Source: Pedobacter deserti (GTDB taxonomy: Bacteria > Bacteroidota > Bacteroidia > Sphingobacteriales > Sphingobacteriaceae). Taken from it: 64,000 bases of DNA. Shown here in pieces: positions 1-13,899 of this stretch. The position numbers and the translations under genes are program-made. Within the stretch, counting starts at the first letter, position 1; every line of letters begins with the position of its first letter. The notes under the pieces were generated by a model that was not told where the DNA came from, searched no databases, and was given only the letters and a program-made list of their open reading frames with translations. The DNA lies in NCBI RefSeq assembly GCF_024436415.1, contig NZ_JAFMZQ010000001.1, positions 930,001 to 994,000 on the forward strand, written 5' to 3'.

Positions 1-2
1 AA

Positions 3-1064
3 AAGCGGTTTTCTGAAGCTTTCGACCACGCGCCTATAGGCATGGCACTGGTGTCGCCCGAGGGCCACTGGATCAAAGTAAACGAGAGCTTATGCCAGCT
101 GCTGGGCTATACCGAGCAGGAGTTCATGAACCATACCTTTCAGGAATTTACCTATCCCGAAGATCTCGACTCCGACCTGCGTCAAATGAAACTATTGCTC
201 AACGGCAAGATACAGCGGTACAGTATGGAAAAACGCTACTACCGCGCCAATGGCGTCCTCATCTGGGCCCTGCTTAGTGTCTCGCTCGTGCGCGATGCCG
301 CCGGCAATCCCCTGTATTTCGTATCGCAGGTTAAAGACATTACACAGCGGAAGCGCAACATGGAAACCATCCGCGATCAGAACGCGCGGCTGTTGAATTT
401 TGCGCATATAATTTCCCATAATCTACGTTCTCACACGGGCAACATCCGGATGATGACGAGCATGATCTCCGAAGAACAAGATGAAGAGGAAAGAATTAAA
501 CTCGTGGAGATGCTCGACATCAATGCCAGCAATCTCCTTGAAACGCTCAACCATCTTAATGAAGTCGTTAAAATTCACGACAAAGGTCAGGCCGATGTTG
601 CCGAACTACACCTCCGGCAGCAGGTAGAGCGCGTCATGGAAATACTCGGCCCCTCGTTCCGCGCCGCCAAGGCAAAAGTAGACCTGCAGATAGATCCTGC
701 ATTGGTCATTAATTACAGTCCGGCCTACCTCGAAAGCATCCTTATCAACTTGCTTACCAATTGTATAAAATATAAGCACCCCGACCGCAAGCCCGAAATA
801 TCCATATGCGCGGAGCTTGTCGATTCCTTTGTGCTGCTCAGCATAAGCGATAACGGCCTGGGCATAGACCTCGAGCTCCACGGGCATAAACTTTTCGGCA
901 TGTACAAAACCTTCCATAAGCATGAGGACGCGCGTGGCATGGGGCTCTTTCTCGTCAAAAACCATGTCGAAGCCATGGGCGGAAGGATCCATGCGGAGAG
1001 CAAGCCCGGAGAAGGAACCAAATTTACCATAGAAATCAACACCCACACATACACACACGAATGA
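3..1064 (+). CDS. PAS-domain sensor histidine kinase, 5' end outside window
   Basis: The reading frame is open from base 3, so the gene begins upstream of the window; the ATG at 42 lies inside the PAS domain and is not the true start. Visible in order are a PAS domain (APIGMALV and ...NESLCQLLGYT), a PAC-like stretch ending VKDITQRK, a HisKA helix with the phospho-acceptor His at 417-419 (ISHNLRSH), and a HATPase domain with an N box (LLTNCIKYK), G1 (DNGLGID) and G2 (GMGLFLV). It should autophosphorylate and pass phosphate to a receiver. The stop codon overlaps the start of the response regulator gene by four bases, so the two are probably a translationally coupled pair. The signal sensed cannot be told because the N-terminus is missing. 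Confidence 0.93.
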   Translation, partial: KRFSEAFDHAPIGMALVSPEGHWIKVNESLCQLLGYTEQEFMNHTFQEFTYPEDLDSDLRQMKLLLNGKIQRYSMEKRYYRANGVLIWALLSVSLVRDAAGNPLYFVSQVKDITQRKRNMETIRDQNARLLNFAHIISHNLRSHTGNIRMMTSMISEEQDEEERIKLVEMLDINASNLLETLNHLNEVVKIHDKGQADVAELHLRQQVERVMEILGPSFRAAKAKVDLQIDPALVINYSPAYLESILINLLTNCIKYKHPDRKPEISICAELVDSFVLLSISDNGLGIDLELHGHKLFGMYKTFHKHEDARGMGLFLVKNHVEAMGGRIHAESKPGEGTKFTIEINTHTYTHE

Positions 1065-1474
1065 GCAAAATTGATATTGCATGCCTGATCGACGACGACA
1101 GGATGTTTACCTATTTGTTGAGTAAACAAATGAAGCTGATGGATTTTTGTGAAGGCGTACTTGTTTTCAACGATGGTCTCGATGCACTCAAATACCTCAA
1201 ACCCATTATTGAATCGCCCGAATCTTTGCCCTCGGTTATCCTTTTAGACCTGAATATGCCGGTGCTCGACGGATGGCAGTTTCTCGACGAGTTCACCAAA
1301 TTCAAGCCCAGTAAAAAGATCACCATATATATTGTCAGTTCCTCTATTGATCAGCAGGACCACCTTCGGGCAGCCCAGTACCGCGAAGTATCCCGTTTTT
1401 ACGTCAAGCCCATATCCAAAGAACACCTGGTCGAGATGCTGGAAACCCTGAACAATAACGACATCAGCTCTTAG
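1061..1474 (+). CDS. Single-domain response regulator (CheY-like receiver)
   Basis: This 137-residue protein is a stand-alone receiver domain. It has the acidic cluster D11-D13, the phospho-acceptor D63 in LLDLNMP, a Ser in the switch position (IVSSS, about 93-94) and the conserved Lys116 before Pro (YVKPIS). There is no output domain, so it probably works by protein contact or as a phosphorelay intermediate. Its ATG overlaps the stop codon of the upstream PAS kinase (ATGA), which makes that kinase the likely phosphate donor. Its 3' end overlaps the 3' end of the convergent EamA gene by 11 bp. Confidence 0.93.
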   Translation: MSKIDIACLIDDDRMFTYLLSKQMKLMDFCEGVLVFNDGLDALKYLKPIIESPESLPSVILLDLNMPVLDGWQFLDEFTKFKPSKKITIYIVSSSIDQQDHLRAAQYREVSRFYVKPISKEHLVEMLETLNNNDISS

Positions 1475-2378
1475 TAAGCTTTGCGCGGTTCGACAAGTAC
1501 GCCGCTACCAGGATAATGGCGATGCCCAGGACCTGGCTTACAGAGATATGTTCATTGGCCACCAATACGCCCAGCAGCACCGCAATAATAGGGTTTACAT
1601 AAGCATAAGTGCCCACTACCGCTGGTGGCCGTACAGACAGCAGGTAGTACGAGGCCGTGAAAGCGACAACCGAACCCGCAACGGCCAGATAGCTGATGGC
1701 AGCCCAGGTGCGCAGGGATACCTGGCTGAAGCTAAACGAGGCCAGCGGATCGGCAAACACACTCACAATCAGGCAGGCCACCGCGCCGCCCAGCAACTGC
1801 CAGCTCACATCCGGGAAAAGGCGGCCAGCCTGCGCATGGTTCTTATAATAAATTGAGCCCACCGCCCAGCTTAAGCAAGAGCCCAGCACAGTAAGCGAGG
1901 CGATCAGCTTCATCGTCCCGTCTTCCGACCCGCCCGAAAGCTGATCCTTAAATAGTAACAATATGCCCGCGAGTCCCAGCGCAATGCCCGCGAACGTAAG
2001 CCAACTGTTGAAATAGCCCTTCCAGTTTTTGCGGTCAACCACAATATACCAGATCGGCAGGGTAGACACCAGCACCGCAGTAAGTCCCGACGATAAATAC
2101 AACTCAGCCCAGAACAACACACCCTGACCCAGCGTAAGCATCACCGCCCCCAGCAGGATATTCCTCCATACTGTAGCATCAATAAGCCGCTGTCGCCGCA
2201 CCACACAAATAACCGCCAGCAGCAAGCCGGCAACCACGTACCTAAAGCCCGCCATCAAAAAAGGGGGGAAATCTTCCAGACCGATCTTAATCGCCAGATA
2301 GGTCGTCCCCCAGATAATATAAACAGCCGCAAAGGCTAAAATGACCTTAAAATCAAGGGATCGGAACCAGTTGTTCAT
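1464..2378 (-). CDS. EamA/DMT-family transporter
   Basis: The 304-residue protein is almost wholly hydrophobic and shows about ten predicted membrane segments in two similar halves, as usual for the drug/metabolite transporter superfamily. The first half has the typical IIWGTTYLAIK start with the FPPFLMAGFRY segment after it. Family members export amino acids, metabolites or drugs across the inner membrane; the substrate cannot be read from sequence. The gene is monocistronic. It converges on the response regulator with an 11-bp tail overlap and has a good -7 box 24 bp upstream. Confidence 0.9.
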   Translation of the reverse strand: MNNWFRSLDFKVILAFAAVYIIWGTTYLAIKIGLEDFPPFLMAGFRYVVAGLLLAVICVVRRQRLIDATVWRNILLGAVMLTLGQGVLFWAELYLSSGLTAVLVSTLPIWYIVVDRKNWKGYFNSWLTFAGIALGLAGILLLFKDQLSGGSEDGTMKLIASLTVLGSCLSWAVGSIYYKNHAQAGRLFPDVSWQLLGGAVACLIVSVFADPLASFSFSQVSLRTWAAISYLAVAGSVVAFTASYYLLSVRPPAVVGTYAYVNPIIAVLLGVLVANEHISVSQVLGIAIILVAAYLSNRAKLTKS

Positions 2379-2401
2379 TTGCTACGCTCATTTAGAGCTT
2401 G

Positions 2402-2409
2402 CAAATATA
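2402..2409 (-). promoter_or_regulatory. Probable -7 box for the EamA gene
   Basis: On the minus strand this reads TATATTTG, a match to the Bacteroidota TAnnTTTG element. It lies 24 bases upstream of the EamA start, just after the stop of the GH130 gene. A TTTG on the same strand is further upstream (2436-2439), with a longer spacer than usual. Confidence 0.5.
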
Positions 2410-2415
2410 TGGAAA

Positions 2416-3552
2416 TCACTGTTTCGACGCGGGATCAAATACCGCCACGGCAACACGCGAATCAGCACAGCCATAATATAGGAACCATTTCTTCTTGAAG
2501 TACACCAGACCTTCAATAAACACGGTGCCTGCGGGGTACTGACCGCTCTTCTCGTAGGCTTCCCTTGGAACCAGGAATGGCTCGTCGAGCCTGTTCAGCA
2601 CTTTTGTAAAATCTTTGGAATCGAACAGGATCTGCCCGGCAGCATAAGTATTCGCTGTGTAGCGCTTGTCGCGGGTCTCGCCCCCCGAATTTTTACCGTT
2701 GTATAAAAGAAGAATGCCCTTGTCGGTCATCACAGCAGGCGGACCGCATTCCGTGAGATCGCTATCGAAATAACCCCGTCTGGGTTTAGCGATATGGAGC
2801 AGGTTGCCCGATTCATTTAGTAAAGGTTCCCAGTTGATCAGGTCGGTCGACACAGCCGGGTTAATAAAACGTTCGCCCCAGTACATCAGATATTTGCCAT
2901 TTACCTTAGCGATTACCTGCTTGTTGCCTTTCAAGCGCGTAACCACCGAGCCCGACTTGCTGGCCATGTCGGCAAACCGTCCGTTATGCGCACGCTTAAA
3001 TGCCGGCCCGTGCTTTTTCCAGATTCGCAAATCCTTTGATGTAGCTACCGCAAGTCGGGGCACTTTCCTGTTCCACTGCGTGTACAACATCACAAAAGTG
3101 CCATCCTCAGTCCGCGCTATCCTGGGGTCTTCGCAACCTCCCGGCCATTCCATTTCCTTCTGGTCGTCATTGGCCGGATACAGCACCGGTTTAGCATCTC
3201 TCCTCATGCTGATGCCATCAGCGCTGGAAGCGATCCCAAGCCTGGAAGTACGCTTGCCTATCCCCATGCCCGACATATCTTCCGCGCGGTACAGCACGTA
3301 GATGCTATCGCCCATTACGGCCGCAGCCGGATTAAAGGTGTCGCTGGCCTCCCAATGTACCGGCTTTCCCGACATCGGGTCAGGGAATACCGTAGTTGTA
3401 TCCGGCAAAATAACCGGCGCGCTGCTGCCTCGGACAAACGGCGTCATGGTCCAGTTGCTGTTTTGCTGCGTGAGTTTTTGAGTAGTACATCCCGCACTTG
3501 CTACGGTAAGGAGCAGCGCGAGCATAAGTTTAGAGATTATATTCAGGTTCAT
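2416..3552 (-). CDS. GH130-type glycoside phosphorylase/hydrolase lipoprotein
   Basis: The 378-residue protein starts with a lipoprotein signal (hydrophobic stretch ending ASAGC, Cys22), so it should be lipid-anchored outside the cytoplasm. The rest is a five-bladed propeller type sequence: GGCEDPRI near residue 143 and YYGCADSRVAVA near the C-terminus are the hallmarks of family GH130, whose members act on beta-mannosides by phosphorolysis or hydrolysis. An exported member is more likely a hydrolase, since free sugar phosphates would be lost there; this is inference. No transporter or SusC/D pair is next to it. A GH43-like propeller is a less likely alternative. Confidence 0.8.
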   Translation of the reverse strand: MNLNIISKLMLALLLTVASAGCTTQKLTQQNSNWTMTPFVRGSSAPVILPDTTTVFPDPMSGKPVHWEASDTFNPAAAVMGDSIYVLYRAEDMSGMGIGKRTSRLGIASSADGISMRRDAKPVLYPANDDQKEMEWPGGCEDPRIARTEDGTFVMLYTQWNRKVPRLAVATSKDLRIWKKHGPAFKRAHNGRFADMASKSGSVVTRLKGNKQVIAKVNGKYLMYWGERFINPAVSTDLINWEPLLNESGNLLHIAKPRRGYFDSDLTECGPPAVMTDKGILLLYNGKNSGGETRDKRYTANTYAAGQILFDSKDFTKVLNRLDEPFLVPREAYEKSGQYPAGTVFIEGLVYFKKKWFLYYGCADSRVAVAVFDPASKQ

Positions 3553-3569
3553 CCCGTCAAGATATCATC

Positions 3570-4682
3570 TTAAAACGAATTACCCAAGCTTCCGTTGTCG
3601 TTAATTTTTCCCATCATGGTGTGAATTTTCCCATCAAGTTCCCCGGCAGCCGTACCAAGCATATCTATATATTCCGAGAGTTCATGCTGCGGCAATGTTT
3701 TGATGACATTCACAAGGCCAAGGATAGAGGCAACCGGCCGGCGTATCTCGTGCGACTGGATCCTGGCGATTTCCGTCAGCGCTTCGTTCTGCTGGGTGAT
3801 CTTAAGTTCGTGAGCCTTTCGCGCAGAAATATCCGTTGCATTATAAGACACCCCGATAATACGTCCGTCTGTAGCATACACCGGATCATAATCTATTTGC
3901 CACCAGATATCCTCCTGCGCATAACTTAGCTTAACATCATTGCTGACACTCTCGCCCTTCATTGCCCGCTCGAAGTTTGCTTTGAAGACATCCAGGTGCT
4001 GCGGATGCACATAATCCGTGATCTTGTCGCCAATGTTGATCCTCATACCTGAGTTGCGTTTCACAAAATCGACAACAGCCTTGTTGTAATGCAGCACTTC
4101 ATAATCGGACCCCAGAAACAGGTGACAGGCCGCTGAGCTTTCAAAAAAGGCCCTGATCTTAGATTCAGAACGCTTTGCCCGGTCAAACTGCTCCTTAAGA
4201 ATATCCACGCTCAGCTCAAAGTCGAGCAGCATCATGGCCTGGTCCCTCAGTACACCAAGCATCAGCCGCTGCTCCTCGTTCAGGTCGTTCGGTTTCATAT
4301 CAATCACGCACAAACTCCCCAGCAGGGCGCCGTCGGCAGCCCTCAGGCGCGCACCCGCGTAGAACCGGATATTCGGATGGCCTGTAACCAGGTTATTCTC
4401 CGCAAACCGGCTGTCCTTCTCGGCGTCCGGAACAACCATGATCTCTTCCTCAAGTATAGTGTGGTTGCAAAAAGCGTCCCTACGTTCGGTATGTGTTAAG
4501 CTGGTTCCCGATTTAACCTTGAAATGCTGGATATCCTCATCCAGAAAAGTAATGAGACCAATTTCGCAATGGCATATCCTCGCTGCCAGGTCAACAATAC
4601 GCTGAAGCTCGGCCTCCCGCGTTATTTCAAGATTTAAGAAGCGTCGGAGAGACTTGAGGCGTTCCAGTTCTGATAAGGGCAT
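3570..4682 (-). CDS. GAF-PAS protein with HisKA-like helix but no ATPase domain
   Basis: This 370-residue soluble protein contains a GAF domain (about residues 20-165; it has the GSLCVIDMKP motif of this group), a PAS/PAC domain (about 175-295; ends GVSYNATDISARK) and then a histidine-containing helix RIQSHEIRRPV that matches the phospho-acceptor box of PAS kinases. The protein stops about 55 residues later, before any N, G1 or G2 box. It therefore has a dimerisation/phospho-acceptor module without its own kinase, and could be phosphorylated in trans or act as a sensor adaptor. The open frame ends normally and no downstream ATPase remnant is seen before the GH130 gene at 3552. Confidence 0.85.
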   Translation of the reverse strand: MPLSELERLKSLRRFLNLEITREAELQRIVDLAARICHCEIGLITFLDEDIQHFKVKSGTSLTHTERRDAFCNHTILEEEIMVVPDAEKDSRFAENNLVTGHPNIRFYAGARLRAADGALLGSLCVIDMKPNDLNEEQRLMLGVLRDQAMMLLDFELSVDILKEQFDRAKRSESKIRAFFESSAACHLFLGSDYEVLHYNKAVVDFVKRNSGMRINIGDKITDYVHPQHLDVFKANFERAMKGESVSNDVKLSYAQEDIWWQIDYDPVYATDGRIIGVSYNATDISARKAHELKITQQNEALTEIARIQSHEIRRPVASILGLVNVIKTLPQHELSEYIDMLGTAAGELDGKIHTMMGKINDNGSLGNSF

Positions 4683-4743
4683 GCGTTAGTGTTTGTTTGA
4701 ACATAAGCAATATCCAGACCATAAAATTGTTTAAAAGCAGAGC

Positions 4744-5556
4744 CTAAAGCTTTTCGATTTCTTTTATAGTGAGACCGGTAGCTTCCGAAATGATCATGAT
4801 GTCGATGCCCTTGCTTTTCAAGTGCTTTGCTATCTCCGCCTTTTCTCTTTCAGCGCCACGGGCTTCCCCTCTAGCTTCCCCTCTGCGATAAAAGATATCG
4901 TTTTCTTCTTTAAAAAATGTACTTACTGACTGCATAATTTCTTCAAGTTGATGTACAAGATTGGATCGCAACTGTACAAATATACGTAATTGATTAAAAA
5001 GTTTATTCTTCTCCAGGTCACTTTCGGTCGACCTGGCAATGCCATCCACAATAGCCTGAAGGTCTTCCTTTAACTTGCCGTGCGGGATATTAGCCAAGAT
5101 GCCCATCATCTTAACGTGCGGCACCTCCGATCTGAGATACAGGTCGGGGTTAGTCTCGGAAACGCGGATCAACTCATACTTGTACTTGTGACAAGGTGTG
5201 TCAATCTCCGTTTTCATTTGAGGCGTAACCTCGTTCAGAAATATCACAAATTGTTTGACTGGCAACTTGTACCGGCGCATCAGCATCACGCTGTACTCGG
5301 CCATTCGGTAAACCATCTCTGCCTCATTGGCTACCTGAAATTCCAGATGCAGAACATACGTATCTCCTGCGCTGTCGGTCACTTTCTTAAGCGCATCAGG
5401 TTTACGTTCTTTTGTATGCTGGATATCGTCTGGCAGCTCCTCACTGGCTACGATGTCGAGATGAAGCAAGTCCTTCATAATCGCTGGCAGGGTAGCTTCC
5501 AGGTTTTCCTTAATGATCTTGTCGTACTGGCTCGTCTGTCCTGAATTCTTTCGCAT
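4744..5556 (-). CDS. Rpn-family PD-(D/E)XK nuclease / putative transposase-like protein
   Basis: The 270-residue protein matches the Rpn (recombination-promoting nuclease, formerly PD-(D/E)XK transposase) group of Bacteroidota. The core includes KPDALKKV followed by YVLHLEFQ, which fits the D...ExQ nuclease motif. The C-terminal tail has short charged repeats (RGEARGEARGAERE) and ends in a helix-turn-like EATGLTIKEIEKL. Family members in E. coli cut DNA and raise recombination; the role here is unknown. A shortened copy of its C-terminus and upstream region lies at 10752-11080. Confidence 0.85.
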   Translation of the reverse strand: MRKNSGQTSQYDKIIKENLEATLPAIMKDLLHLDIVASEELPDDIQHTKERKPDALKKVTDSAGDTYVLHLEFQVANEAEMVYRMAEYSVMLMRRYKLPVKQFVIFLNEVTPQMKTEIDTPCHKYKYELIRVSETNPDLYLRSEVPHVKMMGILANIPHGKLKEDLQAIVDGIARSTESDLEKNKLFNQLRIFVQLRSNLVHQLEEIMQSVSTFFKEENDIFYRRGEARGEARGAEREKAEIAKHLKSKGIDIMIISEATGLTIKEIEKL

Positions 5557-5572
5557 CTGTATTTTTCAGCAG

Positions 5573-5580
5573 CAAACTTA
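5573..5580 (-). promoter_or_regulatory. Probable -7 box for the Rpn gene
   Basis: On the minus strand this reads TAAGTTTG (TAnnTTTG) 17 bp upstream of the Rpn start. The same box and the bases after it (TTAATCAGGAA on the plus strand) recur at the decayed copy near 10991, which supports it being part of the original promoter. Confidence 0.5.
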
Positions 5581-5763
5581 ATCAGGAATAACCATCCGCT
5601 GGTAGTCACACAACAAATTTATTTACAGTTGGTTACGAAATATTTTGAGGTGATAATCAAGGATTTGAACAATAGCTCAACATCACGAGATTTCACCTCA
5701 AAATAACTCAAATGACTTTACCAAATTAAATCGCAGAAGACCGGAAATTAACCGTGAAAGACC

Positions 5764-6162
5764 TTAAATCATGCGTGAACGCCGAAAAGCCAAACGCAAA
5801 ATGCGCCAAATCACCACTATTACAACCACGCCTGCAATCCAAAACCACAGTCCCTGTGCTGGAGAGCGGCTTTTAACGCTTTCAGATAGCCGGGCCGATC
5901 GCTGTTCAGACGCTGCCGCCTGATGGAGCGTCTGTTCGTTTACCAGATCCTTTATGTTCTCATAACGGTACAGTGTGCTGTCGGTCCAGTACGAAAACAC
6001 CTCGTGCTCCCGCGTTGCCCTGCTGTGGCTCAATTCCAGGCGCTCCTGTGCACTGCTTATCTTACGCTCCGAGCTCGAACGTGCGCTGGTCGATTTTCCT
6101 AGCATAGAGCAGCCGCCTGCCGCGACAAGCATTGCGCAAGCCAAAAAACACATCCATTTCAT
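5764..6162 (-). CDS. Putative unimolecular-spanin-like lipoprotein
   Basis: The frame is open further upstream, but the ATG at 6162 gives a lipoprotein signal (MKWMCFLACAML, ending AGGC) and overlaps the stop of the CHAP gene as ATGA, so this start is chosen (132 residues). After the lipobox Cys comes a charged, helix-prone periplasmic stretch, and residues about 98-120 form one strong membrane segment (GLWFWIAGVVVIVV) followed by a basic tail. A lipid anchor at one end and an inner-membrane segment at the other is the layout of phage unimolecular spanins, which link and fuse the two membranes during lysis. Their sequences are too variable for homology to be judged by eye; the call rests on topology, size and gene order. 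Confidence 0.6.
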   Translation of the reverse strand: MKWMCFLACAMLVAAGGCSMLGKSTSARSSSERKISSAQERLELSHSRATREHEVFSYWTDSTLYRYENIKDLVNEQTLHQAAASEQRSARLSESVKSRSPAQGLWFWIAGVVVIVVIWRILRLAFRRSRMI

Positions 6163-6815
6163 CTTCCACCTCCCTTTCCATTTCGCGGAGCAGCTATCCA
6201 GTCGGCATAACAATGCACCGTGCGCACATGCCGCAGGCGGCGATACACCCCATCGCCCTCCCTGCCGCCCGAAGCGTTCGTGTTGCCCTCCACCGTACCA
6301 ATCCAGGAATCGCGGCGGTCGGTTACCAAACCGCAATGTGCCACACGCTTCAACGCTGGGAAATAGATCCCAAACACATTGCCCGGTGCCGCTGCCTTCG
6401 CTAGTCGCGCGGCAGGGAAGAGGGCGGGCGACCAGCCCGTGCGGGGTTTGGCATACCCTGCTTGTTTAAACACCCAGGACACAAAAGCCGCACACCAGGG
6501 CTGTCCCTTCTTCAGGCCCACCGAAGCCAGATAGCCCTCTACACGCGGTCCGTCATTTTTGCCCGAAGCCTCCCGCACCCAAAGCTCCCCGCAGGCTATC
6601 TCCACCACACGCTTGCGCTGCTGCGCGTCGGCAACATGCGGCTTGCTCAAAGGCGTAAAACTGCCATAAAGACGCTCGCCCAGCCAGTAGCCCGCCCTTG
6701 AATGCGGCGTGGCAACCTCAAAGGTGCCTTTGCCTAGCATACTACTGCCAGGCATCCCAGACCCGCCAACAAGAGCAAAGCAAAAGAAAGCCAGAAGAAA
6801 CTTAGCTGTTGCCAT
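6159..6815 (-). CDS. CHAP-domain peptidoglycan hydrolase (endolysin-like)
   Basis: The 218-residue protein has an N-terminal hydrophobic stretch that looks like a signal peptide (residues 1-20) and then a CHAP amidase/endopeptidase domain: the catalytic Cys108 in GQPWCAAFVSWVF, His160 in RVAHCGLV, and the E176-x-N178 pair in VEGNTN. It should cleave peptide bonds in peptidoglycan. The chosen ATG at 6815 overlaps the upstream membrane-protein gene by 82 bp; a start at Met26 (6740) would overlap only 7 bp but lose the signal. The 3' end is coupled by ATGA to the spanin-like gene. In phage genomes such an enzyme between a holin and a spanin is the endolysin. Confidence 0.8.
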   Translation of the reverse strand: MATAKFLLAFFCFALVGGSGMPGSSMLGKGTFEVATPHSRAGYWLGERLYGSFTPLSKPHVADAQQRKRVVEIACGELWVREASGKNDGPRVEGYLASVGLKKGQPWCAAFVSWVFKQAGYAKPRTGWSPALFPAARLAKAAAPGNVFGIYFPALKRVAHCGLVTDRRDSWIGTVEGNTNASGGREGDGVYRRLRHVRTVHCYADWIAAPRNGKGGGR

Positions 6816-7123
6816 AATTCCAGCGTATTAAAGCGTGAAACCATCTCGCCCCGGTCGGGCAAACCCAATACAAACCAAAAATGGTTCAGCAGCCACCAGG
6901 CAATACCTACGATCAGCCCGAAGCAGGCCAAACCAATCATCACCAGCAGCCAGATGCTGCCATCAATAAAGCCGCGAGTCGGGTCGGCAGAAAATACAAG
7001 ACCCTGTAGCAGCGGCCACAGCCAACATACTGCAGTAAGCAGCACGCCGATCTTAAACGCCTTTATCAGCACAGGCGTTCCCCATCCCGGGTGGGCCTGC
7101 ATATTGAAATCAAGAATATTCAT
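6734..7123 (-). CDS. Small three-TM membrane protein, holin-like
   Basis: This 129-residue protein has three strong hydrophobic segments (about residues 22-44, 56-82 and 105-128) and short charged loops. It matches no family I can name. Its size, three-segment layout and position directly before a peptidoglycan hydrolase and a spanin-like protein are those of a class I holin, which would let the hydrolase out or depolarise the membrane. Its start lies only 18 bases beyond the poly-T tract of an intrinsic terminator, so its expression should depend on read-through. The 3' end overlaps the CHAP gene by 82 bp in another frame. Confidence 0.6.
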   Translation of the reverse strand: MNILDFNMQAHPGWGTPVLIKAFKIGVLLTAVCWLWPLLQGLVFSADPTRGFIDGSIWLLVMIGLACFGLIVGIAWWLLNHFWFVLGLPDRGEMVSRFNTLELWQQLSFFWLSFALLLLAGLGCLAVVC

Positions 7124-7141
7124 TTTGAAAAAAATTAGATG

Positions 7142-7172
7142 AAAAAAAAGAGGGCGCCATCACAGCGCCCTC
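7142..7172 (-). terminator. Strong intrinsic terminator before the lysis-like genes
   Basis: On the minus strand an 8-bp perfect stem (GAGGGCGC/GCGCCCTC, 7150-7157 with 7165-7172, 7-base loop) is followed by eight T residues (7142-7149). It lies just after the DUF6266 gene at 7182 and 18 bases before the holin-like start at 7123. Confidence 0.88.
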
Positions 7173-7181
7173 AACTTAACA

Positions 7182-7829
7182 TTAAACAATGATCAGTTCG
7201 CCAAGGTATTGCGACCGGCTCACGAGGCGGCCGTCGACAGCCTTGGCCAGGATATACACCTGAACCTCATCGCCGCTGAAGTCGAGCGGCAAACTCATGT
7301 CGTACGCCACCGCGCTGCGGGCCACCACATCCTGCGCAATCACAAACCTGTCTTTGGCCGGATTAAACACGATGACAGACACCCGGTCGGTCGCATCCCT
7401 GTCGGGAAGCCCCGGCAAATCCGCTGCCCAGCTAAAGTTCAGCTCCGCCTCATTGTCGGCCGCCACCTGTACGGCGCTCAGCTGACCCAGCTTGCCCTCG
7501 CTAAAGCGGATCTGCGCAAAGTCGATCGTGTAGTTCGGAGAAACCCCCGCAACTGCGACCTCCAGATTGTAGGCCACACAAGCGTTCATCGCGCTTTGGT
7601 TAGGCTTGCGCACCAGGTCGAAACCCGGTTTGATAATCGATTTCGCCCAGCTCAGGAAGCCCGAAACCAATTTCATTTTCAATTGCACTTCGATCTGCTT
7701 CACCGTTGGCGGCCGGTTCGATTTGCGCGGCATCGCCTTAATCAGATCCATTAATCTCCAGAAGCAGCCATATGCCGTTCCTAATTGTCCCTGGAATCCA
7801 CCCAGGAATCCTCTTGATAATTTTCCCAT
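7182..7829 (-). CDS. DUF6266 family protein (copy 1)
   Basis: This 215-residue protein has the DUF6266 pattern: a Gly-rich N-terminus (MGKLSRGFLGGFQGQLG), a basic/proline stretch, then a beta-rich domain with F-W-type and VYILAKA..LVS strands and the ending YLGELIIV. No function is established for the family. It has no signal peptide and no membrane segment. Copy 2 lies just upstream on the same strand, and the two share the same start pattern, the middle (DFAQIRFSEGKL versus DYPKVRLTQGSL) and the end. It has its own -7 box at 7893-7900, and a strong terminator follows. Confidence 0.8.
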   Translation of the reverse strand: MGKLSRGFLGGFQGQLGTAYGCFWRLMDLIKAMPRKSNRPPTVKQIEVQLKMKLVSGFLSWAKSIIKPGFDLVRKPNQSAMNACVAYNLEVAVAGVSPNYTIDFAQIRFSEGKLGQLSAVQVAADNEAELNFSWAADLPGLPDRDATDRVSVIVFNPAKDRFVIAQDVVARSAVAYDMSLPLDFSGDEVQVYILAKAVDGRLVSRSQYLGELIIV

Positions 7830-7892
7830 TTTAGTAGGTTTTTAAAGTTTAAAAAATTTGTTTATTCACGTTGTCCTTGCAAGTCAACACGA

Positions 7893-7900
7893 CAAACATA
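7893..7900 (-). promoter_or_regulatory. Probable -7 box for DUF6266 copy 1
   Basis: The minus strand reads TATGTTTG, a full TAnnTTTG match, 64 bp upstream of the start. TTTG motifs occur 10 and 14 bases further upstream, closer than the usual -33 spacing. The same gap holds three TTCCGG motifs between about 7949 and 7976. Confidence 0.45.
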
Positions 7901-7990
7901 TAGCAGCTTTCAAACAAAACCTACTGGGTCACAGTAATTTGCCGAACTTTTCCGGTGATTTTCCGGAGTTCCGGAAAATTTCAGGGCAGT

Positions 7991-8632
7991 TCAGGGCGCT
8001 AATTCACCCAGCCAAACACTGTTCGAGATCTGCTGCCGGTTGTCGCTCACAAAGCCGATGTACACCTGCAGCGCATGCCCGCTAAACTCGTCCGGGATCT
8101 CCAGCAAGTCGGCACCCTTATATCGCGGCGCACCACCAATCTGGAAGGCCGAACGGTTCAGCGCCTGGCAGTACACCAGCAACATCGTTTGTGAACGCTT
8201 TAGTACATTTTCTGCGTTCGGGTCGGCCCACCAATAAAACGACACGCCCTGCAGCGTACGTTCGGCCACAAGTCCAGATGGCATAGGCAGCGAACCCTGA
8301 GTAAGCCGCACCTTCGGGTAATCTATCCGCAAGTCCGGATAAACGCCCGTTACCGCATGCAGCAACTGGTACGACTTCGCCGCATTGTTGGCCGAAAACG
8401 GCTCTCCCCGGGCCGTGAGCTCGAAGCCCACCCTTACAAAATCCGTCATCGTGTCTACAAACCGGTTTACCACCGACATTGCACCGCGTGTCGCCCTAAC
8501 CGGTTCAGTAGCCGGTTTCTTCGTTTTCCGTCGCTTAGCGCGCAAATACGGAATCCCGTTCCTGATGTAACACTCATAATCGCCCGCCACCCCGGTGGCG
8601 CCGCCGAAAACTCCCTGAGTTAATCTAGCCAT
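7991..8632 (-). CDS. DUF6266 family protein (copy 2)
   Basis: This 213-residue protein begins MARLTQGVFGGATG and ends VWLGELAP, the family pattern seen also in copy 1. Between them are a Lys/Arg-rich segment (AKRRKTKKP), a helical part and a beta-rich C-terminal half with FYWWADP and VYIGFVSDNR. No signal peptide is visible. Family function is unknown. It is the first gene of the minus-strand island; its predicted leader RNA would contain four 11-bp repeats and an upstream hairpin partner. Whether it is cytosolic, exported by an unknown route, or a structural subunit cannot be told from sequence. Confidence 0.8.
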   Translation of the reverse strand: MARLTQGVFGGATGVAGDYECYIRNGIPYLRAKRRKTKKPATEPVRATRGAMSVVNRFVDTMTDFVRVGFELTARGEPFSANNAAKSYQLLHAVTGVYPDLRIDYPKVRLTQGSLPMPSGLVAERTLQGVSFYWWADPNAENVLKRSQTMLLVYCQALNRSAFQIGGAPRYKGADLLEIPDEFSGHALQVYIGFVSDNRQQISNSVWLGELAP

Positions 8633-8693
8633 AGTTTCTAGTCTGAATATTAAACCAATATTTACCGGCTGCTACCCGCTCCAGTCCGCATAA

Positions 8694-8737
8694 CATCCGG
8701 GTAGCAACCGGGCAGTATCCGGGTAGTATCCGGGCAG
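8694..8737. repeat. Four tandem 11-bp repeats in the DUF6266 leader
   Basis: The units are CATCCGGGTAG, CAACCGGGCAG, TATCCGGGTAG and TATCCGGGCAG, contiguous with no spacers. The complementary GCTACCCGC occurs at 8671-8679, so in the minus-strand transcript any unit could form a hairpin with it (8-10 bp stem with the first unit). They sit between the predicted -7 box (8754-8761) and the DUF6266 start (8632). Confidence 0.85.
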
Positions 8738-8753
8738 CAACGCCTCTCTAAAC

Positions 8754-8761
8754 CAAAGCTA
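8754..8761 (-). promoter_or_regulatory. Probable -7 box for DUF6266 copy 2
   Basis: The minus strand reads TAGCTTTG (TAnnTTTG). A transcript from here would start near 8747 and carry a leader of about 115 bases that includes the four 11-bp repeats. No clear -33 TTTG is seen at the usual distance. Confidence 0.4.
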
Positions 8762-8770
8762 AATGGTTGT

Positions 8771-8889
8771 AACCGACTCATTTTGTGATGGTTTGCACTT
8801 TTTTCGATGTGCAGGTTTGTAACAATCTGGTTATCAGCGAAAAATTGGTGTTTTTACCAGTCCTTTGTGAAAACCGGTTCATTTTTTTG
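8771..8889. repeat. Pair of direct repeats in the divergent intergenic region
   Basis: The 388-bp gap between DUF6266 copy 2 and the MocR-like gene contains AACCGACTCATTTTGTG (8771-8787) and a near copy AACCGGTTCATTTTTTTG (8872-8889), about 100 bp apart. A small palindrome GGTT-GT-AACC (8765-8774) overlaps the first. They are candidate binding sites for the regulator encoded next door. Nothing else recognisable is seen here beyond the 11-bp repeats. Confidence 0.4.
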
Positions 8890-9020
8890 TATTAAAAGTT
8901 TCTTAAAGTGGTCGTTTCCAGTCGAAAGTATGATAAAGATGCACTGTGTAAGTGATGCCTTTCCTGCCGGAAGCCTGCGATAAGCTAAATTCGTTAACCA
9001 AACATCAACAAACCCGCTCT

Positions 9021-10481
9021 ATGAACGAGAATGAACACCACAGATGGATCGTACCCACGCTCATGAAGAACCGGTACGCTCAGCAAATTGAAGACCTTAT
9101 TGTTACCCGGATCACCAGGGGCATCCTGCAACCCGGAGAGTCACTCCCCTCATGCCAAAAACTGGCCCACATCAACGGCATACACCGCAACACGGTATCC
9201 AAGGTGTACCAAAGCCTCAGTGCCTGCGGCTGGCTGCACATAGGCCGCGGCGGCAAAACCCTCGTGGCCGAACACCCGCCCATACCCAGGGGAAGCCAAA
9301 GCGGGGTGCCCGATCGGGTGCCGGCCAATATGCGGCCCCGGCAGGAAATACTTACCATACCTGCGCCGCAAAACAAGCGCGACTATGTGATGATCGGGCC
9401 CCAGCAGCTCAACGAAACCTATTTGTCCTATAAGCTCATCGATAAACACAGTCGCTCGCATATCCGCTCCCGCATCAACGCTGCGCAGATAGAACTGCTG
9501 CGGGCCGACCGTGCAGAGCCTCTTGCAAACCCGGTATGCGGCTATCTTAATCAACGCGGATTTTCCATTGGGCTGCAAAACCTGCAACTCATCCGCGGTA
9601 AGGGCGCCGCCGTAGCCCGGTTACTGCAACTGCTCCTGCCCCCGCAAAGCACCATCATCAATACCGTGCTGGGCTGTCAGTTTACCGAATACATGATGCA
9701 GCAAAGCGGGCATACCATTATCGAGTTCGATATTACCCGATACGATGCGCTGAGCCAGCTGGAAGCACTGCTCAACAAACAGCCCATCAAAGCCATGTAT
9801 ATCAGGCCGGGCTGCAGCTTCCTTAAAGCACATACGGTCGACGAAGCCACCTGTTTGGCCCTCATAGCCCTGTCGCGAAAACACAGGTTTTACCTCATCG
9901 AAGATGATGACGACCATGAGTTCTGGTACAAAGCCGAACCCTTCCGATCGCTGATAAACTACGAAAACGACGGGCAGGTGGTGTACTGCGGCGCGCTCAG
10001 CAGATTGCATCCATATCTGCAAAACCTGCGCACTATTGTTGCTCCGGCCGAGATCATTGACATGCTGAAAAACATGCCGGGCAGTCCGCATGAGTACCGC
10101 GACCATGTGATGGAGGTCTCCATAGAATATATGCTGAGAAGTGGTGAACTTCAGAAGCTGGTGCGGCAAACCCGGCAGCAAAAGCAGCGCGACCTGATGA
10201 ACATGCACGAGATACTTAAAACCCAGTTGCACGAGTTTATACGATACAAACTGCCCGATCATGGCACAAGCATCTGGATCCGTTTCCTGCCGCAGGTTAA
10301 CCTTAAGCTGATGCTCGACATGCTGGAGCGCAAAGGCGTGCAGGTACCCTACTTTCCGGAAAAGCAGCTGCTCCAGCAGCATGTACACCATATGCGGCTC
10401 GATTTCAGTCAGTATATCGAGGAAGAATGCTACCAGGCCGCCATAAACCTCAGACAGATTTTGCACCACAGGATTCGTTAG
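9021..10481 (+). CDS. MocR-like GntR regulator with degenerate aminotransferase domain
   Basis: The protein has an N-terminal GntR winged helix (RITRGILQPGESLPSCQKLA...RNTVSKVYQSL) and a C-terminal fold-type I aminotransferase-like domain, the MocR/PdxR layout. The frame is open from a GTG at 8952, but the ATG at 9021 sits closer to the usual domain start and is preferred (486 residues); an ATG at 9060 is also possible. The PLP-binding motif usually written S-K-x-x-x-P-G is here SRLHPYLQNLR, with Arg (codon 10002-10004) in place of the Schiff-base Lys; the usual DDYDSEF is DDDDHEF. It probably cannot hold PLP as an aldimine. It is transcribed away from the DUF6266/lysis-like island and lies 2 bp before a small HTH gene. 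Confidence 0.85.
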   Translation: MNENEHHRWIVPTLMKNRYAQQIEDLIVTRITRGILQPGESLPSCQKLAHINGIHRNTVSKVYQSLSACGWLHIGRGGKTLVAEHPPIPRGSQSGVPDRVPANMRPRQEILTIPAPQNKRDYVMIGPQQLNETYLSYKLIDKHSRSHIRSRINAAQIELLRADRAEPLANPVCGYLNQRGFSIGLQNLQLIRGKGAAVARLLQLLLPPQSTIINTVLGCQFTEYMMQQSGHTIIEFDITRYDALSQLEALLNKQPIKAMYIRPGCSFLKAHTVDEATCLALIALSRKHRFYLIEDDDDHEFWYKAEPFRSLINYENDGQVVYCGALSRLHPYLQNLRTIVAPAEIIDMLKNMPGSPHEYRDHVMEVSIEYMLRSGELQKLVRQTRQQKQRDLMNMHEILKTQLHEFIRYKLPDHGTSIWIRFLPQVNLKLMLDMLERKGVQVPYFPEKQLLQQHVHHMRLDFSQYIEEECYQAAINLRQILHHRIR

Positions 10482-10483
10482 CC

Positions 10484-10741
10484 ATGAAACACTTGCTCGA
10501 AAAAATTATTCAGCTGCTCGAAACACACTTTGAAGAACTCCGGCAGGAAAGGCAAGAGACGCTGCTTGCGCGCAACAAGGACGTTTGGCTCGACTCAGAC
10601 ACCGTCCAACGGATGCTGCGGGTAACAGACCGCACACTTTTCAACTACATTAAACAAGGTAAGCTGGTCTCTGTTAAACGCGGTCACGTAAGGTACTTTC
10701 AGGAAGCCTCTGTGCTGGCGCTTATGGAAAAGGGGAGGTGA
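10484..10741 (+). CDS. Small helix-turn-helix protein (MerR/excisionase-like)
   Basis: An in-frame ATG at 10427 lies within the upstream gene; the ATG at 10484, two bases after that gene's stop, is preferred and gives 85 residues. The N-terminal third is a charged helix (HFEELRQERQE) and the rest is an HTH_17-like domain: WLDSDTVQRMLRVTDRTLFNYIKQGKL followed by a wing and RYFQEASV. Such proteins in Bacteroidota bind DNA alone or as partners of larger regulators. It is almost certainly co-transcribed with the MocR-like gene. Confidence 0.8.
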   Translation: MKHLLEKIIQLLETHFEELRQERQETLLARNKDVWLDSDTVQRMLRVTDRTLFNYIKQGKLVSVKRGHVRYFQEASVLALMEKGR

Positions 10742-10751
10742 GGGACAAAGG

Positions 10752-10952
10752 TTAAAGCTTTTCGATTTCTTCAACAGAAAGGCCAGTAGCTTCCGAAATG
10801 GTCTTAATGTCGATTCCTTTGTTTTTCAAGTGCTTTGCAATATCGCGTTTTTCCTGAGCTGCTTTCGCTTCGGCCTTTGCGCGTTCCTTTTCAGCGCCAC
10901 GAACTTCACCCTGTTTCTCCGCCCTGTCCAATAATAGTTCTTCTAAGCCCAT
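10752..10952 (-). pseudogene. Remnant of an Rpn-family nuclease gene
   Basis: The 66-residue frame encodes only the C-terminal tail of an Rpn-family protein; its end (IAKHLKNKGIDIKTISEATG) closely matches the end of the intact protein at 4744-5556. Recognisable frame continues upstream without a start (EQEFDKITERS) to a stop near 11010. The nuclease core is missing. A GGAG sequence stands before the ATG, so a short peptide might still be made. Confidence 0.75.
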
Positions 10953-10990
10953 AGTATTACTCCTTTCAGTTATCTTATCAAACTCTTGTT

Positions 10991-11080
10991 CAAATTTAAT
11001 CAGGAAACATTACTACAGTGATAATCACAGAAAGATTTATTTACAGCTAGCTGAGCAAAATTTTGAGATGATTACCTCAC
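10991..11080. repeat. Upstream region shared with the intact Rpn gene
   Basis: This stretch resembles 5573-5665: both contain CAAA(C/T)TTAATCAGGAA (here 10991 onward), then TTTATTTACAG and a TTTTGAGRTGAT motif at similar distances. The two loci therefore share promoter-side DNA as well as the 3' coding end, as expected for a duplication followed by loss of the middle. Confidence 0.55.
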
Positions 11081-11214
11081 AAATGTTATGAGATCAGCTA
11101 CCTGCTTTCAGGTATTTGCTTACAATCTGTTTGTTTGAGTAAATTATTGGTTATATTGTAATTGATTTTAATACAGCATGTTGCTGTTAAATGACCAACC
11201 AAACTAACCATCTA

Positions 11215-12750
11215 ATGACTCGAGAATTATTGTTTGTTGCCTGCATGTTATGTATGCTAAGCGCAAAATCACAAACCCCGATTAGCGATATTATATCGAA
11301 AAAATCCACAATCCTTATAAAGAGGGAACAGCTCATGAACGGATATATACCGTTGCAGCAAGTCAGCGTTGTGAGCGACAGGCAACCATTTTCAAGTGTG
11401 GAAGAAATTGAGAATTTCCTTGATAAAATGAATTCGGATGAGTCATTGAGCTCGGATATATCGATCTGGATGCGCCAACATCTTAAAAGCTACCCAAATG
11501 GCGCTGCTATTGTTTTTGTACGCCGGCCGCTCAACCTAAATAAACTGTATCAAAATACCAGCGCAACTATCGATTCATTATATAAAGTAGTTTGCAAGGA
11601 AAAGCACGCCATCAAGGCGATGCTGGAGGCGTACAGAACCGAGGAGAAGACCCTTACAAAGAAAATGGCAGCGGACAGGACGGAAATTGTTAAGAGAAGC
11701 ATACAAAACGCAACCGAAAAAGAAAAGCGCGAACTTAAGAAGCTTCAGTCAGATTATACAATTGACCAGCAAAAGCATCTATCGCTCAGATCGTTAATTG
11801 AAAGCCTTGATAAGGAACATATGGGTCTAACGGACAAGTTGACCGAACTTCAGAAGCAGTTTGATGAGGCTAATAATTTTTTTGTGGAAGACACTACCCA
11901 GATACTGTCTACAGTTATTACCAGTGAACATGGCGAGAGCTCTGATTATTTGCTGAACAGAAGGAATGTACTTGTCGTACTCTTAGGAAATTCGTTCAAT
12001 TCGCACTCGATACAAGTGGTTAATGGTAAAAAGAGCGTTGATGTGGGGTTAGCTAATCTTATGAAATTGGCGACTACCGTTACCGGTATTAAGAATGGCG
12101 CGAAGTACGAAAGGGACAAAGACTGCGATCCGGTAAATCCTGACCGGTCCATGCAATTAACCTTTTTTCTGTTGAAACAGAGAAGCATCGATCCACCGAG
12201 TGCCCTAAATTTAACCAAGCAGGAGAAGGTGGTAAAGACTTTAGCGGATATCCACGAAAAGTCCTATTTAGGGATAAAGGTAGGCTTAGGTCTTCATCGG
12301 CTTGAAAACAAGGATTTCCGTTTGAATTCCAATAATGAACTCACGATACAAACAGACTCTCTTCGAGCTGATGAGCTAAAACTTAACCTCATGGCACTTG
12401 TCGAATTTTACCCTTTTGGCCGTGATTATGACCGGCTTAAATTGATTACCGATAAAGATAACATTCCATTTCATGAACGTATCGGAATCGTGGCGGGGCT
12501 GAAGATATCTAAAGACCCGCTTGAAAGTTATTTTGCAGGAATCTCTTTGGCAATTTCCAAAGCCTTTAATGTTGTTGCGGGAACAAGTTTCAACAAAACA
12601 CCGGAAGATGTAGATGAGTTGCAGGTGGGAACCAATGCAAGTCTGGAGTACTTACGAAGACATTCCGATAAGCAATACGTACCGAAACTATACCTCGGCA
12701 TCTCTGTGTCACCGGAGTCATTGTTCAAAGTGTTTGGTGTGAAAGATTAA
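11215..12750 (+). CDS. Exported coiled-coil protein of unknown function
   Basis: Starts at 11191 and 11215 are both possible; the latter begins a compact signal peptide (MTRELLFVACMLCMLSAKSQ). I do not recognise the family. The mature protein has an N-terminal globular part, a long charged helical region (about residues 120-220, rich in Lys, Glu and Leu) likely to form a coiled coil, and a C-terminal part with alternating hydrophobic residues and phrases such as LGLHRLENKDF and AGISLAISKAFNVVAG that look like outer-membrane beta strands. It may span from the outer membrane into the periplasm. A metalloprotease lipoprotein gene follows 19 bp later on the same strand. Confidence 0.75.
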   Translation: MTRELLFVACMLCMLSAKSQTPISDIISKKSTILIKREQLMNGYIPLQQVSVVSDRQPFSSVEEIENFLDKMNSDESLSSDISIWMRQHLKSYPNGAAIVFVRRPLNLNKLYQNTSATIDSLYKVVCKEKHAIKAMLEAYRTEEKTLTKKMAADRTEIVKRSIQNATEKEKRELKKLQSDYTIDQQKHLSLRSLIESLDKEHMGLTDKLTELQKQFDEANNFFVEDTTQILSTVITSEHGESSDYLLNRRNVLVVLLGNSFNSHSIQVVNGKKSVDVGLANLMKLATTVTGIKNGAKYERDKDCDPVNPDRSMQLTFFLLKQRSIDPPSALNLTKQEKVVKTLADIHEKSYLGIKVGLGLHRLENKDFRLNSNNELTIQTDSLRADELKLNLMALVEFYPFGRDYDRLKLITDKDNIPFHERIGIVAGLKISKDPLESYFAGISLAISKAFNVVAGTSFNKTPEDVDELQVGTNASLEYLRRHSDKQYVPKLYLGISVSPESLFKVFGVKD

Positions 12751-12769
12751 CTAAATTATCCGTATCAAA

Positions 12770-13729
12770 ATGAAAAAGGAAGTGATGCTTTTAAGCGTGC
12801 TCGTAGCAACACTAGGTGTTGCCTGCAGTGATCAAAAAGGTGGAGACGACACCGGTTCCACAACTACCCAGGCAGATACATCGATAGCTTCAACAAATGG
12901 GGCGCTTGCGCTAGATACAATTTCTCTTACCTCTTCTAAGGCGCTTTCTTTAAACAGCAAAGCGCAGGAGCTTATGGCCCGCCTGCAGCGAACGCTTAAG
13001 TCAGTAGTTCTCGACGGCACAAAATTTTATGTTGTTGAAGGTGATTTGTTGATGGATCAGGATGAATTGTATGTATACGCACTCAAACTATTAAATCGCG
13101 ATCGAGGCGCGCACGGAGCGGATAAGCTGACCGTAGCAACTACGTCTGCCGGTCAGTTTGCTAAATGGCCTGAGGGGTATGTGATCAAATATTCGGTATT
13201 AAAAAGATCGTTCATGTCACCCCAGATGTACCAACAAACCGTTGCATGGATGCAAGAAGCCACGACCGATTGGATGAAGGCCTGCAATGTTAAGTTTGAA
13301 TATGTGCCGGCATTGGATAACGGCACTGTCGGCCAAGTTATTGATCCCAGGCTGACCTTTGTGGTAAGACAATTTAACTCAAATGGTGCATTTGTGGCAC
13401 AGGCATTCTTCCCGCCAGATCCACCATACAGGCGGAAGATATTGTTGGATTACCGTTTTTTTAGTCTGCGGGAAAGCAAGGCGGGTGTGCTGCGGCATGA
13501 ACTCGGCCATGTCTTAGGTTTTCGACATGAGCACATATGGCGTACCGGAACTGACTGTCCCGAAGAGGCGATTGTTGAGGAATTCCTCGGCGCTCAGAAT
13601 TTAAGCGAAGAGATAGATTGCTCTTCGGTAATGCACTATATCTGCGGCGACTGCGGTTCATACGAAATGAAGCTGTCTGAAAATGATATCAGGGGCGCCC
13701 AAGTGGTGTACGGCACACCTAAACGCTAA
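12770..13729 (+). CDS. Metzincin-type zinc metalloprotease lipoprotein
   Basis: The 319-residue protein has a lipoprotein signal (ending LGVACS, Cys19), a low-complexity Thr/Ser linker, and a catalytic domain with the zinc motif HELGHVLGFRH (His243, Glu244, His247, His253) and a Met-turn SSVMHY near residue 288. HExxHxxGxxH plus Met-turn defines the metzincin clan; similarity to the HEIGH (M57) and matrixin groups is the closest I can name. It should be a surface or periplasmic protease. Paired Cys residues near the C-terminus (CSSVMHYICGDCG) may form a disulfide. It shares a 19-bp gap with the upstream exported coiled-coil protein, which may be its partner or substrate. Confidence 0.85.
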   Translation: MKKEVMLLSVLVATLGVACSDQKGGDDTGSTTTQADTSIASTNGALALDTISLTSSKALSLNSKAQELMARLQRTLKSVVLDGTKFYVVEGDLLMDQDELYVYALKLLNRDRGAHGADKLTVATTSAGQFAKWPEGYVIKYSVLKRSFMSPQMYQQTVAWMQEATTDWMKACNVKFEYVPALDNGTVGQVIDPRLTFVVRQFNSNGAFVAQAFFPPDPPYRRKILLDYRFFSLRESKAGVLRHELGHVLGFRHEHIWRTGTDCPEEAIVEEFLGAQNLSEEIDCSSVMHYICGDCGSYEMKLSENDIRGAQVVYGTPKR

Positions 13730-13778
13730 TAGATATACGTCTAGAGTTTAACTTATTTAACGTCACCTAGCCCTTTAA

Positions 13779-13795
13779 AGTGTACGTTGTACACT
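13779..13795. promoter_or_regulatory. Perfect 7-3-7 inverted repeat before the polysaccharide locus
   Basis: AGTGTAC-GTT-GTACACT is a perfect palindrome with a 3-base centre, 184-200 bp upstream of the first polysaccharide gene. It has no T tract, so an operator is more likely than a terminator. No regulator gene is adjacent. Confidence 0.45.
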
Positions 13796-13891
13796 ATGCA
13801 GGGCAATATCCCGCTCATTTTTAGCATTTTACCAGAACATATCGAAATTATTTTAAGAAAATTTAATATTAAAACTTGCATAAGATTTCCT

Positions 13892-13899
13892 TATATTTG
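13892..13899 (+). promoter_or_regulatory. Probable -7 box of the polysaccharide locus
   Basis: TATATTTG matches TAnnTTTG exactly, 80 bp upstream of the CpsB-type gene. A TTG lies 13 bases upstream (13876-13878), which is shorter than the usual spacer. Confidence 0.5.

Follow-up and report, generated by a model that had tools for sequence, protein, structure and literature searches.

A phage-type lysis cassette behind DUF6266 genes in Pedobacter chromosomes: a candidate terminator-gated, type 10 secretion-like release system

Why would a Bacteroidota chromosome carry holin-, endolysin- and spanin-like genes outside a phage? The question is raised by three overlapping minus-strand genes of Pedobacter deserti, at positions 5764–7123 of the 64,000-nt stretch analysed here (the window), for which an initial annotation had proposed an orphan lysis cassette. 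The genes are laid out as that annotation described. Gene A (6734..7123, minus strand) encodes a 129-aa protein with three hydrophobic segments, holin-like in topology; gene B (6159..6815, minus strand) a 218-aa CHAP/NlpC-type peptidoglycan hydrolase, so called from PHROG matches, residues and an AlphaFold2 model, with a hydrophobic, signal-like N-terminus; and gene C (5764..6162, minus strand) a 132-aa lipoprotein with a C-terminal transmembrane (TM) segment, whose topology is unimolecular-spanin-like. The overlap is 82 nt between A and B and 4 nt between B and C. The reading we favour, and consider probable, is that these genes form a domesticated, terminator-gated, type 10 secretion-like release cassette derived from phage, with DUF6266 proteins encoded directly in front of it as the likeliest cargo.

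Relatives of the locus were compared in three sets: a chromosomal set from named genomes, comprising the best 80 of 186 relatives; a viral set of 84 IMG/VR loci, the union of 6 loci and the best 80 of 484, one of which lacks an intact B; and a related-genome set of 81 loci, made up of 80 fetched regions (mostly better-scoring B places) and the window. In the first two sets A was counted by profile or as a multi-TM ORF just upstream of B; in the third, the gene calls of the neighbourhood overview are crude, and gene order was read on the same strand within at most four genes upstream and three downstream.

Of 148 related genomes, 53 have a relative of B; 52 of the 53 belong to the genus of the window, and Pedobacter accounts for 61 of the best 80 chromosomal loci. 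Across the 81 related-genome loci, A was found in 79, DUF6266 in 73 and C in 54, usually in the order DUF6266-A-B-C on one strand and amid varied neighbours; around B stand DUF6266, A and C in 47 loci, DUF6266 and A in 24, A and C in 7, A only in 1 and none of them in 2. The A/B overlap is exactly 82 nt in 72 of 79 related-genome loci and in 63 of 75 chromosomal loci (best 80 of 186); in the latter set, 67 of 80 loci have DUF6266 immediately upstream, and C went unrecognised in 18 of 80. The P. deserti genome holds a second cassette, ordered DUF6266-A-B-DUF6266. Recurrence of DUF6266-A-B(-C) across the genus and related genera is far beyond chance. Co-occurrence with DUF6266 outside prophages, which the initial annotation had named as a test of its proposal, is also seen at genus level: among 89 genomes, 50 have B and DUF6266, 2 B alone, 16 DUF6266 alone and 21 neither (Fisher p 1.5e-8, uncorrected for kinship and partly built in, as each cassette brings one DUF6266; weak or partial B matches were scored as present). 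The median number of DUF6266 copies per genome, counted up to about 19, is 7.5 with B and 0 without, and 16 of the 37 genus genomes that lack B still have the domain.

B matches the PHROG endolysin family phrog_9589 (E 2.8e-16), and falls under the curated cut-off of NCBIfam TIGR02594 (32.4 of 70.55 bits). The initial annotation had called it a CHAP hydrolase with Cys108/His160. Its score lies below the gathering cut-off of Pfam CHAP (PF05257; 18.1 of 26 bits), and thus "CHAP/NlpC-type" is the safer name, but the residues stand: no variation is seen at Cys108, His160, Glu176 or Asn178 in any of 69 chromosomal loci with DUF6266 (best-80-of-186 set), 80 related-genome loci and 83 viral loci (6 plus best 80 of 484). 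The AlphaFold2 model of B (pLDDT 85.4) has the endolysin Ly7917 as its best PDB match (E 9.1e-4, the sole match at or below 0.001), followed by other endolysins and NlpC/P60 endopeptidases, with LysIME-EF1 and RipA among the fold matches; a sequence search of the PDB with B gave nothing better than E 0.15. The catalytic Cys/His pair with its polar partners and the predicted fold together place B among the peptidoglycan hydrolases of the CHAP/NlpC-P60 superfamily.

The lipoprotein and C-terminal membrane features that had been noted for C can be recognised by eye: AGGC at residues 15–18, a hydrophobic segment at the C-terminus, and no cysteine between them. Of 63 homologues in the chromosomal set, 62 have the C-terminal TM segment and 53 both lipobox and TM segment by a heuristic scan. 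By sequence, C has the topology of a unimolecular spanin, with lipobox, C-terminal TM segment and no periplasmic cysteine; Pfam, PHROGs and NCBIfam contain no family that it matches. A has no Pfam or NCBIfam match either, and its PHROG matches are weak and to families without assigned function, while all 76 homologues of 101–174 aa have at least three hydrophobic segments in a lenient scan. Its putative holin role comes from this topology and from homology to a phage cassette.

The initial annotation had also noted that capsid, tail, terminase and integrase genes are absent nearby. Fifty-five ORFs of the window match 36 PHROG families; terminase, portal, capsid and integrase are missing from the 25 of these listed, while one ORF matches a "minor tail protein with lysin activity" (phrog_382, 6.5e-14) and one a transposase family. 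No tRNA was found at 1–20000, and no Rfam match at 5000–11200. Two minus-strand ORFs, 4744-5556 and 10752-10952, flank the locus and have a common C-terminal motif around KGIDI..ISEATGL; the longer has a weak likeness to Transposase_31 (16.9 of 21 bits), and the two may represent an ancient mobile gene along with a fragment of it. Farther along, at about 14.7–47.8 kb, PHROG matches to nucleotide-sugar epimerases, glycosyltransferases, UDP-glucose dehydrogenase and an O-acetyltransferase occur as in an exopolysaccharide cluster.

Relatives of the cassette in phages were absent from the initial annotation, as were the hairpin and the regulator genes described below. IMG/VR contigs of Bacteroidota-type phage carry the A-B(-C) module amid phage genes: among 83 viral loci with intact B (6 plus best 80 of 484), 79 have A or a small multi-TM ORF just upstream and 28 in addition a C-like protein, and the A/B overlap is exactly 82 nt in 17 of the 72 with an A match. 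Presence in phage contigs, often with the same overlap, marks A-B(-C) as a true phage lysis module. In a phage collection, B matches 349 records, all below 60% identity (31–38% among the 30 matches listed). DUF6266 was found in none of the 83 viral loci within the 4–17 kb stretches fetched, a count that a DUF6266 gene farther off would escape.

What is new at the chromosomal loci lies between DUF6266 and the lysis genes. In the window, a terminator-like, G+C-rich hairpin followed by eight T (7150..7172, minus strand) separates the two; at the same junction, the second cassette of the genome carries a hairpin of nine pairs with six T behind it, and both have the make-up of a classic terminator. 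Folding of the 85 nt past the DUF6266 stop, compared with shuffles at all 61 chromosomal loci with A and DUF6266, gave a median z of -3.58, with 50 of 61 below -2; after dereplication to 38 loci, the one place in this work where relatedness was corrected for, 29 remain below -2. Controls gave median z values of -0.12 before the first DUF6266 (4 of 54 below -2), -1.47 at the operon end (27 of 67), -2.63 between tandem DUF6266 genes (4 of 7), 0.10 before A in viral loci (3 of 72; 6 plus best 80 of 484) and -0.42 after lone DUF6266 genes of the P. deserti genome (4 of 14). Hairpins thus also trail other gene ends, less often than they occupy the DUF6266/A gap. A strict terminator rule was satisfied by 19 of 61 gaps, against about 1% of shuffles, and a looser rule (hairpin of at least 6 bp plus T-rich tail), applied to the 40 loci with gaps of 30–200 nt, by 21, against 1.5. 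The hairpin stands a median of 20 nt from A (range -4 to 92, 39 loci).

A Sigma-70 promoter scan of 5300–9200 found 0 matches where 3.2 were expected; that model is unfit for Bacteroidota promoters, so TANNTTTG was used instead. We take this motif, and the form TATGTTTG found in the window (7893..7900, minus strand; 71 nt before P0004), to be the -7 element of the Bacteroidota promoter. The window also has the motif 129 nt before P0005. TANNTTTG occurs within 150 nt before the first DUF6266 in 34 of 67 loci, against 5.5 expected, and 29 of 35 occurrences fall 65–107 nt upstream of that gene; it is missing in the other 33 of 67 and in the stretch examined of the second cassette. Before A it occurs in 0 of 61 chromosomal loci, against 4.2 expected, and in 6 of 72 viral loci (6 plus best 80 of 484), against 6.4. 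A promoter without this motif may still precede A. With the motif before DUF6266, none before A and a hairpin between, transcription of A-B-C most likely starts before DUF6266 and reads through the hairpin, and the hairpin itself is likely to act as a terminator gate.

If such a gate exists, its control might be sought among the neighbouring regulators. In the window, a GntR-type regulator (8952..10481, plus strand; GntR domain in Pfam), presumably MocR-like by eye, and an HTH_17 protein (10427..10741, plus strand; Pfam) are candidate controllers on the opposite strand; the first DUF6266 lies 0.3 to 2.1 kb away. Near the 67 DUF6266-linked loci (best-80-of-186 set), an HTH_17 gene is found at 45, upstream on the same strand in 36; MocR-like relatives at 14; and a LytTR gene at 20, many of one clade by eye, with 12 LytTR genes genome-wide. 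At least one of the three types lies near 53 of the 67, and none near any of the 84 viral loci (6 plus best 80 of 484). That the HTH_17 protein in particular serves as the antiterminator is doubtful, at perhaps one chance among several.

The DUF6266 proteins themselves are puzzling. The window encodes two, P0004 (7182..7829, minus strand; Pfam PF19781, E 2.1e-30), a candidate cargo or partner, and P0005 (7991..8632, minus strand; Pfam E 2.6e-33). Of 23 DUF6266 genes in the P. deserti genome, 19 lie at 14 places without A, B or C, singly or in pairs; phylum-wide, the domain was found in 21 of 296 genomes including that of the window, mostly solitary among the loci listed. Identity to P0005 ranges from 18 to 43% across 68 others. 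The AlphaFold2 model of P0005 (pLDDT 95.4) combines strands at the N-terminus, helices and a C-terminal half that resembles FN3 (Z up to 7.6, in a comparison that barely probed the N-terminal half); the FN3-like fold is common, so we draw no function from it. In the structure library, the model as a whole has one viral look-alike, a protein without assigned function (E 2.4e-5, 12% identity), so DUF6266 may have had a viral past. P0005 had no match in phage and plasmid collections, a PDB sequence search with DUF6266 gave nothing up to E 1, and the literature searched does not name DUF6266.

Some relatives carry DUF6266 fused to a C-terminal TPMT-type methyltransferase (2.4e-27) or GNAT domain (2.8e-11, 5.5e-9), as at L303:1701-2987 (minus strand), L302:2336-3499 (plus strand) and L304:2304-3434 (plus strand); further copies with C-terminal extensions exist. 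TPMT-type and GNAT domains use cytosolic cofactors, and such fusions therefore fit secretion poorly, the main oddity for a cargo reading. Taken together, we regard DUF6266 as main cargo as an evenly balanced proposition. A family of about 190 aa (L151:4015-4587, plus strand; L162, L185, L189, L193, L062, L071), which precedes A in some cassettes, is like DUF6266 in its N-terminal domain (hhalign probability 98, E 7.3e-14, 89 columns) and has a different C-terminal half.

Viral-contig searches returned no relative for one DUF6266 subgroup and, for another, one 4.3-kb contig, filed as viral, which also carries cas1 and a cas2-like gene (the latter by eye) and which we take as bacterial. On this contig (L326:290-2253, plus strand), the genes behind DUF6266 (1e-89) encode a protein matching Phage_holin_4_1 (2.1e-5), a small product that has no Pfam match but is hydrolase-like by eye, and a lipoprotein that has a TM segment at its C-terminus. 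These proteins are unrelated to A, B and C and stand in the same order behind DUF6266; a single contig, this is a lead rather than proof. Separately, a 250-aa family without Pfam match, found in 38 of 295 genomes of the class (L329:6455-7833, plus strand; L354–L373), has DUF5675 directly behind it in 6 of 20 loci inspected by eye and a small same-strand ORF with one or two TM segments downstream in 15, and is perhaps another cassette of this kind.

How might these parts work together? We infer the membrane and wall activities, gating by antitermination and the cargo role of DUF6266, as follows. A phage cassette of holin A, endolysin B and unimolecular spanin C would have been captured by Pedobacter-type Bacteroidota and kept as a cell-opening device. 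DUF6266 would be transcribed from its own promoter, with the hairpin behind it normally halting transcription ahead of A-B-C until, on some signal, read-through or antitermination, perhaps via the HTH_17, MocR-like or LytTR regulators, turned these genes on. A would then open the inner membrane, B cut peptidoglycan, and C fuse or disrupt the outer membrane, releasing cytosolic DUF6266 made beforehand, including copies encoded elsewhere. The signal-like N-terminus of B suggests that a holin is perhaps not needed for its export. A more specific version is tentative, and we rate it somewhat below an even chance: in Pedobacter and relatives, part of the population would be sacrificed, with phage-derived, terminator-gated cell opening setting free cytosolic DUF6266 proteins, a large and diversifying family in which some members bear enzyme domains; and partnerships of DUF6266-type proteins with unrelated holin/hydrolase/spanin sets would have arisen on more than one occasion.

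The same parts could instead serve programmed self-lysis or abortive infection, in which the cassette kills the cell, for example upon phage attack or DNA damage, and DUF6266 acts as sensor or regulator rather than cargo. A hairpin before lysis genes together with small HTH regulators recalls the alp system as described in PMC7969949, and the diversity of DUF6266 paralogues would suit such a role. Defence searches speak against it: at E 0.1, PADLOC models gave nothing for A, B, C and DUF6266, the matches of the HTH_17 protein to mad1 (4.6e-7) and ZorG (0.0065) being probably generic HTH, and no recognised defence family appears among the 25 of 97 Pfam families listed for 134 flank proteins. 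The 19 of 23 P. deserti copies of DUF6266 that lie away from any cassette also count against it, and we consider self-lysis an unlikely, if serious, alternative to protein release.

Less probable still, at roughly half the weight, is remodelling of wall and membrane without lysis. Here B would export itself by its signal-like N-terminus, A and C would be accessory or restraining membrane proteins, and DUF6266 would stay inside the cell, as its cytosolic-type enzyme fusions and its occurrence alone might suggest. The trio is, however, the lysis set of phage contigs, and C has spanin topology.

Whether the cassette serves its host at all was judged from flanks, phylogeny and selection. Viral-flank-like proteins average 0.12 per locus at the 67 DUF6266-linked loci and 7.0 between viral contigs, a figure raised by the resemblance of viral contigs to each other, and at least one such protein occurs at 7 of 67 and 81 of 84 loci, respectively. 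Those at DUF6266-linked loci are, where a start could be placed, UmuC/DinB-type repair or general proteins by their look. Among the 134 flank proteins of these loci, scanned at two per locus, the 25 of 92 PHROG families listed include no terminase, portal, capsid or tail, and one protein matches the endolysin family phrog_2649. Loci without DUF6266 do include prophages, with terminase, head, sheath and integrase among the 47 of 66 flank proteins covered; L198, L202, L205, L206 and L207 have 4–7 viral-flank-like proteins each. Homologues are thus not confined to intact prophages, the finding that the initial annotation had said would count against it, and its view of a holin/endolysin/unimolecular-spanin-type cassette outside phages agrees with these flanks.

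In a quick tree of B (150–300 aa, 160 rows), one set of 57 rows, including B of the window, holds 54 DUF6266-linked, 3 other chromosomal and 0 viral sequences (SH-aLRT 84). The B placed nearest to that of the window in this tree is from P. psychroterrae. The chromosomal label requires 8 changes over the tree, at least 4 of them forced, and so several captures or exchanges are likely. Values of dN/dS were 0.06–0.54 wherever computable in 17 pairs of related loci (0.06–0.36 for B alone), with the A/B overlap excluded for both genes and three gene comparisons giving no value; some dS are saturated, and three DUF6266 pairs at 22–26% identity are hardly orthologues. The chromosomal cassette genes are under purifying selection, and single copies with internal stops occur. 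A prophage remnant was rejected for the DUF6266-linked loci on these dN/dS values and the non-phage flanks. That the loci are remnants or recurrent grafts of lysis genes from prophages that do nothing for the host, as the phage type of the cassette, the label changes, the internal stops and the prophage-like loci without DUF6266 might imply, is very improbable in the face of the same dN/dS values and flanks, the invariant catalytic residues, and a DUF6266 and hairpin junction common to distant chromosomal loci and not seen in viral ones. We are confident that a phage lysis module has been captured and kept by its host.

If correct, the release-cassette reading would extend protein release dependent on lysis cassettes to Bacteroidota, and provide a first functional frame for DUF6266. 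It would also yield a domesticated lysis cassette with a control switch that is readable from sequence as a terminator ahead of the lysis genes. Whether type 10 secretion is lytic or non-lytic could then be tested in a new phylum, in a system where a unimolecular spanin replaces the two-part spanin. The literature searched, mostly outside subscription journals and available in part, contained no such system in Bacteroidota.

Among known systems, the Bacteroidota-type phage cassettes in IMG/VR have homologous A and B, often the 82-nt overlap, and C in some; they differ in their phage neighbours, in the lack of DUF6266 in the stretches fetched and in the rarity of the hairpin. C resembles the unimolecular spanin T1 gp11, which is described as having an outer-membrane lipoprotein signal, a C-terminal TM segment and no periplasmic cysteine (PMC6139136), and like C is encoded by the last lysis gene; C differs in having no family match.

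For control logic, the closest parallel we see, by analogy, is the alp system of Pseudomonas aeruginosa, where AlpA is reported to allow RNA polymerase through the terminator that precedes the self-lysis gene alpB (PMC7969949). Both have chromosomal lysis genes with a phage-like holin behind an intrinsic or terminator-like hairpin, and a small DNA-binding regulator; judged by sequence, the Pedobacter loci likewise appear to have a terminator between promoter and lysis genes. The genes themselves differ, and in Pedobacter DUF6266 sits between the promoter motif and the hairpin.

In architecture the cassette resembles the type 10 secretion systems, a name given to holin/endolysin/spanin clusters outside phages (PMC10847048). 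Those described have a core of holin and hydrolase with optional spanins, and some are reported to work lytically, others non-lytically (PMC13284979). The examples, Serratia ChiWXYZ, Yersinia entomophaga YenLC and a Salmonella system, are likewise phage-derived lysis genes outside phages, and have dedicated regulators (PMC10847048, PMC13284979), to which the regulator genes near Pedobacter loci, known by position, may correspond. Unlike these examples, the Pedobacter cassette belongs to Bacteroidota, has a CHAP/NlpC-type hydrolase and a single unimolecular-spanin-like protein in place of an i-/o-spanin pair, and carries DUF6266 directly in front and a terminator-like hairpin before the lysis genes. 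Its predicted gene content, a holin and a hydrolase with or without a spanin outside a prophage, is that of a type 10 system, and we file it as type 10-like rather than as a proven member.
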